Notes under the pieces: generated by a model | The model's input: only the letters and a program-made list of their open reading frames with translations | Databases searched by the model: none | Told to the model about the DNA's origin: nothing | Assembly: GCF_011316935.1 (NCBI RefSeq) | Contig: NZ_WLYS01000006.1 | Location: 62,001 to 126,000, forward strand | Direction: 5' to 3' | Length of the DNA: 64,000 nt | DNA from: Sphingobacterium chungjuense | Lineage (GTDB): Bacteria > Bacteroidota > Bacteroidia > Sphingobacteriales > Sphingobacteriaceae | Made by a program: the position numbers and the translations under genes | In this document: positions 14,606 through 19,930 of the stretch, one piece after another | Position numbering within the stretch: the first letter of the stretch is position 1 | Layout: each line of letters begins with the position of its first letter

Positions 14606-15079
14606 CTAGCGAGATATTTCTAAGACTTCTAGGTTCAACTCGCCCGCAGGTACCGTAACCGTAGCGACATCACCTACTTTCAATCCTAAAAGACCCTGCG
14701 CAATCGGTGACTTTACAGAGATCTTACCAGACTTGAAATCTGCTTCTGTCTCCGACACCAACTGATAGGTCATTACTGCGCCATTTTTCACGTTTTTGAT
14801 CTTCACGATCGACAGAGCCAATACCTTCGATGTATCTAGGTTGGATTCATCAATCACACGTGCTGTAGACAATACCGTTTCTAATTTGGCGATCTTAGCC
14901 TCGTGCAAACCTTGCGCTTCTTTTGCGGCATCATATTCCGCATTCTCTGAAAGATCTCCTTTGTCTCTCGCTTCGGCAATGGCATTTGCGATCTTTGTGC
15001 GTCCCTCCGTCTTCAAATACTGCAATTCTTCACGAAGCTTGACTAATCCCTCTTCCGTATAATAAGTTACTTCTGCCAT
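14606..15079 (-). CDS. greA: Transcription elongation factor GreA
   Basis: A 157-residue protein of normal GreA length. The N-terminal coiled coil (about 1-75) includes EGLVKLREELQYLK and the acidic tip DKGDLSENAEYDAAKEAQ, whose Asp/Glu pair enters the RNA polymerase secondary channel to stimulate cleavage of backtracked RNA. The C-terminal FKBP-like domain has SPIAQGLLGLKVGDVATV. The final residues LNLEVLEISR match the family end. It is downstream of the response regulator but separated by a hairpin terminator, and has its own terminator. Confidence 0.97.
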   Translation of the reverse strand: MAEVTYYTEEGLVKLREELQYLKTEGRTKIANAIAEARDKGDLSENAEYDAAKEAQGLHEAKIAKLETVLSTARVIDESNLDTSKVLALSIVKIKNVKNGAVMTYQLVSETEADFKSGKISVKSPIAQGLLGLKVGDVATVTVPAGELNLEVLEISR

Positions 15080-15212: not shown

Positions 15213-15920
15213 TTAATCTGGAATTTCAGACGTGTCATCGACAAACTTGTAGCCCAATCCGCGGACGGTCTGCAAATACGATGGTTTGTCTGGATTTTTT
15301 TCAATTTTCTTGCGCAAGCGCACTACGTGCATATCCAACGTGCGCGTATTCACGTTGGAACTGTAGCCCCATACTGCTTCCATCAGCTCGTCGCGTGTCA
15401 CGTCCTTTCCCTTGTTCCGAAGGAAGTGTAGTAAAATGCGATTTTCTAAAATGGTCAACTCAATTTTTTTCCCATCACGTACCAAAGAGTGGATATTAGG
15501 ATGATGTTCTGTCTGTCCAAAATGATATACTTCGGCGCCGGACTTAGGCACGAAGAAGCGTACTTTATTTTCGATCATGGCTACCAATACATCCATGTTG
15601 AACGGTTTGGTGATGTAGTCACTGACGCCGTAGCTATACGCATCGATTTTATCTACATCTTGTGATTTGGCCGTCATCATGATAATGATATTTTCAAATC
15701 CTGCCTTCCGCACAGACTGGCATACTTCGATCCCCTCTTTACCTGGTAACATCCAATCCAGCAACACGATATCGGGTTGCTTAGCGAGTATTTCTTTCTC
15801 AGCTTCTAAGCCATCTCCAAGTTGCAGTACCTGATAATTTTCTGTTTGTAGCCGATGACTTACCAAAAAACGTAAGTTTTCATCATCTTCTACAACAGCA
15901 ATCGTTATTTCTTTTTCCAT
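15213..15920 (-). CDS. OmpR/PhoB-family response regulator
   Basis: A 235-residue transcription factor. The receiver domain (1-125) has the acidic pair near VVEDDENLRF, the phosphoacceptor D55 in IVLLDWMLPG, and K in DYITKPF near residue 106. The C-terminal winged helix (about 135-230) has EVWGYSSNVNTRTLDMHVVRLRKKI and the end TVRGLGYKF. It follows the histidine kinase gene by 15 bases, and that in turn follows the S9-fold lipoprotein by 13 bases. The kinase is surely its partner. Targets are unknown; two inverted repeats upstream of the operon (19525-19566) are candidate binding sites. Confidence 0.95.
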   Translation of the reverse strand: MEKEITIAVVEDDENLRFLVSHRLQTENYQVLQLGDGLEAEKEILAKQPDIVLLDWMLPGKEGIEVCQSVRKAGFENIIIMMTAKSQDVDKIDAYSYGVSDYITKPFNMDVLVAMIENKVRFFVPKSGAEVYHFGQTEHHPNIHSLVRDGKKIELTILENRILLHFLRNKGKDVTRDELMEAVWGYSSNVNTRTLDMHVVRLRKKIEKNPDKPSYLQTVRGLGYKFVDDTSEIPD

Positions 15921-15935
15921 GTGATTTTTTTGATC

Positions 15936-17597
15936 TTATTTGGGAAAGGTCAACGTAAATGTGGTGCCTTTACCCAATACACTTTCCACTCGGATTTCTC
16001 CGCCCATAAACTCCGTGATTTCTTTGCAAAAAGCTAAACCCAAGCCTATGCTACCACCTTGATTATATTGATTCTGTATACGATAAAACTTCTTAAATAT
16101 ATTTTTCAATTCATTCTTCGCAATTCCTATTCCTCGGTCGCTAAATATGATAACAAAGTTTTTCTTTGTTTGCTCTACCTCGACATGAATAAAACGATGA
16201 CCAGCTTCAGAATATTTGTAAGCGTTGTCTACCAGATTGTGAAAGACAGACGCTAAAAGAATAGGGTCAGTGTGCAATTCGTCCGTAACATCGATATTAT
16301 ATGTTAAGCTAATATCACTGTATTTGATACGACAAGCCTTAAATATCTCTTCGCAAAAGTCGTGCAAATTAATCCAATCCCCTTTATAAGGGATAGATTT
16401 GTTTTCAATTTGCGCGTAGGACAACAGCTTATTCATCAAGTTGTTGAGCTTATCTGCTTCTTGATCCAGAATACGGCCATACATTAGTCGCTCTTCGTCA
16501 GAAATTTTTTGTGCACTCTTGATATTATTCCCAGCGATCTTAATCACGCTCACTGGTGTTTTGAATTCGTGTGTCAGGTTATTGATAAAATCGTATTGCA
16601 GCCTGTACAGTCTATTGTTGTTATTAATATTACGATAAATTAGATATACTATCGATAACAGAATAAGATATAACACCGAAATACCCATCACTACCGGTAT
16701 TAACAATCGATATACCTCTTTGGTTATAAATTCTTTTGAAGAGTCAAATTTTATCTTAAAATCAGACAAGGCACCGGGCAGCGGCAGTTCGGTGGTATAA
16801 TAGGTCCTCTCCTCCATCGCCGCAGGATCGGTCAAAGGTGTAATGGATATCTTCTCATAATATCGTGGCTGCGTGTTACTCAACCGAAGTTTTTGCGGAT
16901 TGATTCGAAAAAGAAACATATCTTGCTCAAAGAAAGCATCTGGCAAGCTATCATTGAGGAGCAAGGTCTTGTATAGTAAAAGATCGCTAATGCGGGGAAT
17001 GTTGAGATATCCAATTTTGCCGGGCGAAAAGGAATAGAACACCCGATAGATTTCATCTTCTGTCAAGGTGGTAGATTCATTTACTTTCGCCAGATAATCA
17101 AAAAACTTAATAGCTGCATTATTAAAGTCACCCGCATATGGATCAGGTTCTTCCTGAAAGTTGGACTTGCTGTGCAAGCGATATTGATTATCCAAATTAA
17201 AACTAATGATCGATTTGGGATGAAAAAGCAAATTATCCCGATAGCGAACGCCACGACTTACGGTGCGCGAATTAGTTATAGTGACATCATAAAATACGAC
17301 CTCCTCTACAAAAGGATTTTTGCGAAGTGCTTGTTCTGCGTACTGCCTTGCTTGTATAGAATCCAAAAATCCCTGATAATAAGATAGCTCTGGAATACCA
17401 TTGTACAGAAATTCATTGAAGGGTTTTATCGTCGCGTCGAATACATCGGTCTTTCGATTATAGAACTCAGATTCTACGTGATTGGCAATCGTAGATCTTG
17501 CCAAACCAACGGCTACCACATAGAGTATGGTCACGATAGCCAGAAAGGCAATCAGCAAACCAAAATTCTTCTGATAGCGGACAACAGGTTGTGGCAC
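15936..17597 (-). CDS. Membrane sensor histidine kinase
   Basis: A 553-residue kinase. A first membrane helix (about 13-33), a periplasmic sensor of about 260 residues without a recognised fold, and a second helix (about 298-322, IPVVMGISVLYLILLSIVYL) lead to the HisKA domain with LTHEFKTPVSV, phospho-acceptor H343, and a HATPase domain with NLVDNAYKYS, DRGIGI and GLGLAFCKE. The periplasmic part contains repeated aromatic segments and ends in the barrel-like stretch PLPGALSDFKIKF. The gene lies between the S9-fold lipoprotein and the response regulator. The lipoprotein, placed in the envelope, is a natural candidate to modulate this sensor; that is inference from order only. Confidence 0.94.
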   Translation of the reverse strand: MPQPVVRYQKNFGLLIAFLAIVTILYVVAVGLARSTIANHVESEFYNRKTDVFDATIKPFNEFLYNGIPELSYYQGFLDSIQARQYAEQALRKNPFVEEVVFYDVTITNSRTVSRGVRYRDNLLFHPKSIISFNLDNQYRLHSKSNFQEEPDPYAGDFNNAAIKFFDYLAKVNESTTLTEDEIYRVFYSFSPGKIGYLNIPRISDLLLYKTLLLNDSLPDAFFEQDMFLFRINPQKLRLSNTQPRYYEKISITPLTDPAAMEERTYYTTELPLPGALSDFKIKFDSSKEFITKEVYRLLIPVVMGISVLYLILLSIVYLIYRNINNNNRLYRLQYDFINNLTHEFKTPVSVIKIAGNNIKSAQKISDEERLMYGRILDQEADKLNNLMNKLLSYAQIENKSIPYKGDWINLHDFCEEIFKACRIKYSDISLTYNIDVTDELHTDPILLASVFHNLVDNAYKYSEAGHRFIHVEVEQTKKNFVIIFSDRGIGIAKNELKNIFKKFYRIQNQYNQGGSIGLGLAFCKEITEFMGGEIRVESVLGKGTTFTLTFPK

Positions 17598-17610
17598 TTA
17601 GATTCCTTTT

Positions 17611-19506
17611 TTAGTGTAAATATTGTTTCAAAAAGCCTTCGATTTCCTGAAAGTATAAAGCCATATTTTCTTCGCTCTTAAAGCGGCGACCTTCCTCCTC
17701 TTTGAATATATAACGTACCGGAATGTTATTTTGCTTTAAGCGCGCTACGAACTGATTCGCATCGGTCACTGAAGTATATTTATCCTTCCCGCCTTGAAAA
17801 AACAGAACAGGCTTCTTGACCTTGCCCGCATGAAACAGCGGTGATATTGTCTTGAAAAATTCTGCTTCACGCTCAGGATTGCCGATGATCTGATAATACA
17901 TCTGCACATAAGGTTTCAAATGTGGTGGTATCTCTTTGAAATAGGTAAACAGATTGCTATAGCCCGACGAGGAAATAATACATTCGTACATCGATGGGTT
18001 GAAACTCGCGGCATGCAATGCTGAATAGCCACCAAAACCCGTCCCCATGATCGCCATACGGTTTTTATCCACCTTGCCTTCGTGAATAAGCCAAGTGACA
18101 CCGTCGGTAATATCAGACTGAATTCGACCGCCCCATTCGCGAAATCCGGCCGACCAAAAAGCTTTGCCATATCCCGTAGTGCCGCGGTAATTAATCTGAA
18201 AAACGGCATAACCGCGATTAGCTAAGAATTGTACTTCTGGATTGAAACCCCAATCGTCCCGACGACTTGGTCCATCATGCACCAGCACTACAAGCGGACA
18301 ATTTTTCTTCTTACCTTTCGGATAGGTGATAAAACCATTTATTTCTTGATTGTCGCGCGCATTGAACTTTACAAACTCCATGGGCAACATTTTCTCTTCC
18401 TTCAAATCAGGATATGACGTCATGAGCAATGTAAATTCATCTGTGCTTTTATTGTAATAATACACTTCTCCCGCTCGCACATCGCTATAAACCCGAATGA
18501 TAAAACGCTCTAAGTCGCGATCCATATCCAAAAAATCTACCGCAGAACCTTTAAAATGTCGCTGAATGATTTCATAAGTTGATTTTAGCTGAGTATCAAA
18601 AAAGCGATATTCTTTTCGACATGCACTTGTCGTGGCAAACAACTGTTGGTGCAATTGATGAGAAAAGCCCTCATTGTTCACATCTACCTGATCATCAGCG
18701 AATAATTCGCGAATCTCTTTTCCGGCAGATACATCGTATTCCACTATGGCAAACTTGTCTCTATTCTGATTGGACATGGCCACGACAGACGTGGTCGATT
18801 CACCTAAATATCCAACAGGATGCACCGAGGTCTTGAAGTCGTATACCGCGACTTCTCGAAACTGTTGTTGCTCGTTGGCTCGGTACAAAATAGATTCTTG
18901 CACACTATCGTTCGTTAGAGCCAGCCGTACCACGCCATCTGGCGAAGGTATCCAAGAAGTGATCGATCCAGGATTTTTGTATACCAACTCAGGCTTTCTG
19001 CCATCTAAAAATATCTTGTAGAGATCAAATACACTGGAGTCTCGCGTATTTAAGGAGGCGTACATTGCGCCCTGATAATCCCGAATCGGCTGCATAAATT
19101 TCAAACGACTCTTGACGGGTTCGAGCAGCGCATGAATGGAATCTGTGGCAATATCTACCGCATGCAATCGCAAGATATCGTCGGTGTAATGTGAATTAGA
19201 AAACACAATGATACTATCATTGGCCCAATTGAAATTTTGAACGTTAAGATTATCTTGATAGGTCAATTGCTTGGATTTATCCCCGTCGGATAAATCCATA
19301 ATAAAAATATTCTTACAATGATCGTGAAGACCTAAATAAGCAATCTTACTGCCATCAGGTGAAAGCTTAAAATTGCTTCGATCAGGCTTGTATATAAAAC
19401 TTTCTATTGGCAAGATCTCATTTTGCTCCGTAGCAGAGCCGCATGCCTGCACCAATAGCGACAGCATGAATAGAAAACAGATCGTATGTAAGTACCTAAA
19501 ATTCAT
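17611..19506 (-). CDS. S9-fold lipoprotein lacking catalytic Ser and His (pseudo-peptidase)
   Basis: About 631 residues from ATG at 19506, which puts a signal helix before the lipobox LVQAC; an ATG at 19530 is the alternative. The N-terminal two thirds is a WD-like beta-propeller (for example FKLSPDGSKIAYLG). The C-terminal alpha/beta-hydrolase domain has VLVHDGPSRRDDWGF and GYAVFQINYRGTTGYGK, both typical of prolyl oligopeptidase family S9. The nucleophile motif GxSxGG reads GTGFGG, so Gly490 replaces Ser. D575 is kept in GKDKYTSV, but the usual GHGF reads GRRF, so Arg607 replaces His. Two of three triad residues are gone, so hydrolysis is unlikely. It heads an operon with a histidine kinase and response regulator and may act as a sensor or binding protein. 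Confidence 0.9.
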   Translation of the reverse strand: MNFRYLHTICFLFMLSLLVQACGSATEQNEILPIESFIYKPDRSNFKLSPDGSKIAYLGLHDHCKNIFIMDLSDGDKSKQLTYQDNLNVQNFNWANDSIIVFSNSHYTDDILRLHAVDIATDSIHALLEPVKSRLKFMQPIRDYQGAMYASLNTRDSSVFDLYKIFLDGRKPELVYKNPGSITSWIPSPDGVVRLALTNDSVQESILYRANEQQQFREVAVYDFKTSVHPVGYLGESTTSVVAMSNQNRDKFAIVEYDVSAGKEIRELFADDQVDVNNEGFSHQLHQQLFATTSACRKEYRFFDTQLKSTYEIIQRHFKGSAVDFLDMDRDLERFIIRVYSDVRAGEVYYYNKSTDEFTLLMTSYPDLKEEKMLPMEFVKFNARDNQEINGFITYPKGKKKNCPLVVLVHDGPSRRDDWGFNPEVQFLANRGYAVFQINYRGTTGYGKAFWSAGFREWGGRIQSDITDGVTWLIHEGKVDKNRMAIMGTGFGGYSALHAASFNPSMYECIISSSGYSNLFTYFKEIPPHLKPYVQMYYQIIGNPEREAEFFKTISPLFHAGKVKKPVLFFQGGKDKYTSVTDANQFVARLKQNNIPVRYIFKEEEGRRFKSEENMALYFQEIEGFLKQYLH

Positions 19507-19524: not shown

Positions 19525-19566
19525 TTCCAAATATTGGAATTATTTAGTGATTTGCACGAAGTGCAA
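19525..19566. promoter_or_regulatory. Two short inverted repeats upstream of pseudo-peptidase operon
   Basis: TTCCAA-ATA-TTGGAA (19525-19539) and TTGCAC-GAA-GTGCAA (19552-19566) are both 6-3-6 perfect inverted repeats within 42 bases, between divergently transcribed genes. They could be operators, possibly for the operon's own regulator. No direct evidence. Confidence 0.4.
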
Positions 19567-19627
19567 CTTTAATTTTACAGGGAAGGGAATGTTTCTTCTT
19601 TCACATCTCAGCTCGCAAAAAAAAACG

Positions 19628-19639: not shown

Positions 19640-19930
19640 ATGTATTTGTACAACATCTCTATCATTGTCGAAGAATCTGCACATGCTGATGCTATTAATT
19701 GGGTTACTACTACCTTTGTACCAACTCTACCAAGCCAGCACCAGCCACAGTTATTGAGCTTATTGGATTCGCCTCACGAAGGCCATACCTACTCGCTACA
19801 ACTAAAATTTGATGAGCGAGCTACGTTGGAAGATTTTAAAGCCGAATTTTTGCATCAGTTGCAGCATTATTTAGCGACTAATCACGCAGAACGCGCATTT
19901 ATCTTTGATAGTACAATGCAGTATTTGTAG
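19640..19930 (+). CDS. DUF4286 family small protein
   Basis: A 96-residue cytoplasmic protein: MYLYNISIIVEESAHADAIN, a middle HEGHTYSLQLKFDERATLEDF and an end FIFDSTMQYL fit the DUF4286 family of Bacteroidota, a ferredoxin-like small fold with no known function. There is no signal peptide or membrane helix. It stands alone between divergent and convergent genes, with a promoter-like element directly before the ATG. Family recognised from pattern; function unknown. Confidence 0.8.
   Translation: MYLYNISIIVEESAHADAINWVTTTFVPTLPSQHQPQLLSLLDSPHEGHTYSLQLKFDERATLEDFKAEFLHQLQHYLATNHAERAFIFDSTMQYL

Follow-up and report, generated by a model that had tools for sequence, protein, structure and literature searches.

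Catalytic loss in a protease is usually regarded as a single old event. In animals, DPP6 and DPP10 are inactive proteins of the S9 fold which have become partners of a membrane protein, a potassium channel. In bacteria, there are lipoproteins that act on a sensor kinase encoded in the same operon: QseG binds and activates the kinase QseE (PMC6075780, PMC12691602), and LpqB modulates the sensor kinase MtrB (PMC13189361). In this study, we have explored an operon of Sphingobacterium chungjuense, lying in a window of 64,000 nucleotides (the whole stretch of DNA that was analysed), in which an S9-fold lipoprotein lacking two of its three catalytic residues is encoded together with a histidine kinase and a response regulator. 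Its features are the following.

17611..19506, minus strand: S9-fold (prolyl-oligopeptidase fold, POP) lipoprotein of 631 amino acids, catalytically dead (G490/D575/R607)
19441..19443, minus strand: Cys22, acceptor residue of the lipobox (LVQAC)
18421..19419, minus strand: N-terminal beta-propeller region, about residues 30-362
17614..18411, minus strand: alpha/beta-hydrolase domain, about residues 366-631
18037..18039, minus strand: Gly490 (GGT) at the position of the nucleophile Ser, in the motif GTGFGG (488-493)
17782..17784, minus strand: Asp575 (GAT, in GGKDKY), the triad Asp, kept in 139/140 orthologs
17686..17688, minus strand: Arg607 (CGC, in GRRF) at the position of the catalytic His
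15936..17597, minus strand: membrane histidine kinase of 553 amino acids, HisKA with His343 and HATPase_c
16698..17492, minus strand: sensor region of the kinase (approximately residues 36-300), predicted to be periplasmic
15213..15920, minus strand: OmpR/PhoB-type response regulator of 235 amino acids, Response_reg and Trans_reg_C (Pfam), receiver Asp55
19563..19580, minus strand: 18-base element CTGTAAAATTAAAGTTGC in the S9 promoter region, at -74 from the ATG (family consensus cTGTAaTaTAAATGTTAC)

The S9 reading frame, which opens with an ATG at 19506 and gives the full 631 amino acids, matches PF00326 (Pfam) with an E value of 1.2e-39. Its AlphaFold2 model, built with 51 orthologs as input, has a mean pLDDT of 90.8 and a pTM of 0.89; residues 43 to 363 are chiefly strands, and among PDB structures the acylaminoacyl peptidase 5l8s comes closest (Foldseek E 1.5e-38, TM 0.78). 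By its catalytic-domain sequence and its POP fold (propeller plus alpha/beta hydrolase) the protein is a homolog of peptidase family S9, and by the absence of the Ser-Asp-His triad and of the GxSxGG motif it does not qualify as an active peptidase of that family. The first-pass annotation had already described Gly490 in GTGFGG, Arg607 in GRRF, the remaining Asp575 and the short distances of 13 and 15 bases to the kinase and the OmpR-type regulator, and our reading of the frames agrees with it in every detail. The substitution at Gly490 is specific to the S9 gene of the operon, because the nucleophile Ser is present in all six other alignable S9 proteins of the same genome. The residue equivalent to Cys22 is a Cys in all 140 full-length orthologs aligned, which makes a lipid anchor in the envelope almost certain for this protein. 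A by-eye comparison with signals known from other Bacteroidota showed no acid-rich signal for surface export after this Cys, and for this reason the protein is predicted, as the likely orientation, to face the periplasm.

On the minus strand, the S9 gene is followed after 13 bases by the kinase, and the kinase after 15 bases by the regulator. These two proteins have what is expected of a HisKA/OmpR two-component system, namely a phospho-acceptor His, an ATPase domain, a receiver Asp and a winged-helix domain. The sensor region of the kinase gave no relative in Pfam or, by profile search, in the PDB, and at the sensitivity used it was not found outside Sphingobacteriaceae among 345 Bacteroidia genomes. 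When the full kinase model was searched with Foldseek, the top matches fell on its cytoplasmic part; in NCBIfam, the regulator comes closest to MtrA, at a level below the cut-off. The regulator is followed by a greA-like gene (14606-15079, minus strand), which is found near the regulator only in genera g1, g4, g16, g17 and g19. On the other side, S9 of Sphingobacterium has its intergenic region in common with a small divergent DUF4286 gene (19640-19930, plus strand; PF14114, E 1e-13); many other genera have a different, secreted-looking protein in this divergent position.

The partnership between S9 and the kinase is widespread in the family. A match to S9 was found in 291/301 Sphingobacteriaceae genomes and the sensor region of the kinase, which is single-copy, in 296/301; at every examined S9 locus with enough flank, the kinase lies directly downstream on the same strand. 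The operon has the make-up of an accessory-lipoprotein three-component system, with a lipoprotein, a kinase and a regulator encoded together throughout a clade. One genus, g11 (five genomes of 1.7-2.0 Mb; L241-L245), has the kinase and the regulator without S9, and the gene preceding its kinase is divergent. This speaks against a strict need of the kinase for S9, which is therefore a strongly conserved but non-obligatory partner. About eleven other genera have this kinase next to an S9 protein with an intact Ser-Asp-His triad, from which it follows, at the level of sequence comparison, that the pairing is older than the catalytic loss. Outside Sphingobacteriaceae, the nearest S9 homologs examined all have intact motifs (GxSYGG ... 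EGHGF), and none of them has such a kinase in its vicinity. The first-pass annotation had suggested that the lipoprotein lost its protease action and may have become a peptide sensor for the kinase. The triad is gone and the adjacency is family-wide, and a sensor partner is still the explanation that we favor, but the pairing predates the loss and did not originate with it. As an observation that would count against its idea, the annotation had also named S9 homologs which adjoin the kinase with Ser and His in place, and such homologs occur in those eleven or so genera but in 0/54 of the Sphingobacterium orthologs.

The alignment of homologs, which had been proposed as a check on whether the loss is conserved, gave a uniform answer in Sphingobacterium, with Ser and His both absent in 54/54 full-length orthologs. 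Among all 140 full-length orthologs, 112 are without Ser and His, three are without Ser only, one has Ser without His, and 24 have the triad intact; within genus g21, the triad is intact in some proteins, half lost in others and fully lost in others again. To place these states we used a tree of 113 S9 proteins, with the active-site columns left out and 20 intact outgroup proteins as root. Most of its early branches carry intact proteins, and under an irreversible model it requires about 11 losses of Ser and about nine of His, the exact number being uncertain as our S9 trees are quick ones. There are nine independent pairs on well-supported branches, and in independent pairs the loss of His never runs against the loss of Ser. 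A single shared loss of Ser was rejected (p-AU 3e-74 for the tree with the Ser-less proteins as one clade). It is therefore safe to say, on the grounds of these trees, that the catalytic residues of S9 were lost many times. Taken together, our comparisons show an intact S9 peptidase paired with the kinase in early Sphingobacteriaceae and a pairing retained since, with the nucleophile and the His lost about ten separate times, one of these losses dating to the common ancestor of Sphingobacterium and g4, its sister genus. In all Ser-bearing orthologs the Ser codon is AGY, which is one transition from Gly, the usual replacement. One protein inside a dead clade, L137 from genus g15, carries Ala in place of the catalytic His and has Ser back at position 490 (GGSFGG), probably through a back-substitution by chance.

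We also looked at traits that could tie S9 to the kinase. In partial Mantel comparisons, the distances between S9 proteins correlate with those of the kinase sensor region (r 0.50, permutation p 0.001, conditioned on the kinase catalytic region and the regulator), with those of the kinase catalytic region (0.35) and with those of the regulator (0.21); by domain, the partial correlation with the sensor region reaches 0.53 for the propeller, as against 0.30 for the hydrolase domain. As a sign of a link between S9 and the kinase this is suggestive only, because fast-evolving regions may correlate for other reasons and the catalytic part of the kinase correlates too. The region upstream of S9 is also conserved. 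The 18-base element is found in 134/141 S9 loci across the family, though the upstream neighbour gene varies by genus, and its motif likelihood is 319, as compared to 47-54 for shuffled sequences, for which fewer starts were run. In the source genome the exact element occurs only at S9 (near matches number 21, against 18 for a reversed-pattern control); in 12 other genomes its commoner form has one site each, before S9, with one extra site in one genome. Searches of the source genome and these 12 gave no target list for a regulon, and the element is absent before the kinase of g11, the genus without S9. It may be a candidate autoregulatory binding site.

Based on these comparisons, we consider it fairly probable that the S9 protein acts as an accessory periplasmic sensor or modulator of the kinase, in a three-component system for envelope sensing. 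In such a system, the fold of the lipid-anchored S9 protein would retain a ligand-binding cavity between the propeller and the hydrolase domain; a ligand from the envelope or from outside, or the state of the envelope, would alter its contact with the periplasmic domain of the kinase, and the kinase would phosphorylate the OmpR-type regulator. Binding alone would be the signal and cutting would be needless, and the operon may control its own expression via the 18-base element upstream of S9. That the ligand could be a peptide is a guess suggested by the family. In favor of an accessory sensor, the lipobox Cys would put S9 in the envelope, where the predicted sensor region of the kinase lies; the shared operon means shared expression and is not proof of contact between the two proteins. 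The repeated losses lend weight to the view that the partnership can do without catalysis, since intact S9 forms adjoin the same kinase and catalysis appears to have been lost later, many times. A possible history would then be one recruitment of a peptidase as partner of the kinase, followed by about ten conversions to a non-catalytic receptor with binding rather than cleavage as the signal, a proposal that we make tentatively and with slightly more doubt than confidence.

The state of the dead copies bears on several other explanations. Comparisons of closely related S9 genes from dead lineages give dN/dS values of about 0.015-0.07 (simple Nei-Gojobori counts, with dS partly saturated), those for the kinase being similar, and from these counts the dead S9 copies are under strong purifying selection. 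We give almost no credence to the possibility that S9 is a pseudogene in decay or the product of a sequencing error: in two Sphingobacterium genomes (G142, G184; L189, L190) the S9 frame is broken ahead of an open kinase frame, through real loss or assembly error, but the absence of Ser and His throughout the genus, dN/dS of about 0.02-0.07 and the confident model all contradict it, and for the S9 gene of the window it is refuted by conservation and dN/dS. Dead genera show higher conservation in the hydrolase domain than in the propeller (0.69 vs 0.51 in Sphingobacterium, for example), and nearly all dead copies retain His410, Pro413, Arg441, Gly488/492/493 and Asp575. The loss seems to be restricted to the nucleophile and its His, which fits a fold and pocket retained for binding. 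The same retention (fold, Asp575, His410, Tyr446 and the Gly cage in most dead copies) could be read as the mark of a protein which is still an enzyme, hydrolysing peptides or esters via a different nucleophile or mechanism. We find this highly improbable, as positions 489 and 490 and the His site all vary (Gly, Asn or Arg at 490; R/K/N/T/F/A and others at the His position) and the motif holds no conserved substitute nucleophile. A shifted nucleophile at 489 was rejected, this position being variable (T/A/S/N/G/K).

Two further explanations leave S9 a binding protein and remove its role as a sensor for the kinase. S9 could be the output of the system, an envelope binding or chaperone-like protein and the main target of the two-component genes; the conserved upstream element, near-unique to the operon in 12/12 genomes searched, would suit this, and so would a genus (g11) that has the kinase without S9. 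Nevertheless, lasting linkage to the kinase and the regulator in nearly every genome of a family is not required of an output gene, and the distance correlation is highest with the sensor region, so that we hold this explanation to be rather unlikely. Alternatively, an intact S9 would destroy a signal peptide of the kinase and a dead S9 would hold it, as a decoy or substrate trap, without contacting the kinase. Such buffering agrees with the presence of both intact and dead S9 beside the same kinase and with the retained surroundings of the active site, but it appears improbable to us: the two forms would differ in their effect on the level of the signal, yet about ten lineages lost catalysis with the operon layout visibly unchanged.

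With intact, half-lost and dead orthologs in sister genera that have the same kinase, the general question of whether enzymes turn into receptors through a loss of catalysis with binding retained is directly testable. If S9 is an accessory sensor as we propose, its repeated conversions would represent a replicated natural experiment in which the kinase reads ligand binding, not cleavage. An S9-fold protein would also join the accessory lipoproteins acting on sensor kinases, and a function would be indicated for an operon found in nearly all sampled Sphingobacteriaceae genomes.

There are clear likenesses and differences between this locus and the described systems. With the S9 members of acylaminoacyl-peptidase type (MEROPS/Pfam; PDB 5l8s) the protein has the whole two-domain fold in common; unlike them, it has its Ser and His replaced, a lipid anchor and two-component genes in its operon. 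As in the enterobacterial QseG-QseE-QseF system, with its accessory outer-membrane lipoprotein, a lipoprotein is encoded in one operon with a membrane kinase and a regulator, the distinction being that contact has been experimentally shown for QseG and would have to be supposed for S9. In the actinobacterial three-component system MtrA-MtrB-LpqB, a lipoprotein of the operon likewise modulates the sensor kinase, but LpqB is encoded last and in a different phylum, while S9 is encoded first; LpqB is not, to our knowledge, a former peptidase. Neither the QseG nor the LpqB family is among the Pfam and NCBIfam matches of S9, which are dominated by S9 and alpha/beta-hydrolase relatives. The reuse of an inactive S9 fold is common to DPP6/DPP10 and to the protein described here, which differs in being bacterial and in that its losses are recurrent within one family. 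We found no published pairing of S9 with a two-component system in the open literature, subscription journals and preprints lying largely outside that scope. The novelty of the locus lies in a proposed accessory protein of a kinase which derives from an S9 peptidase and has repeatedly lost catalysis.
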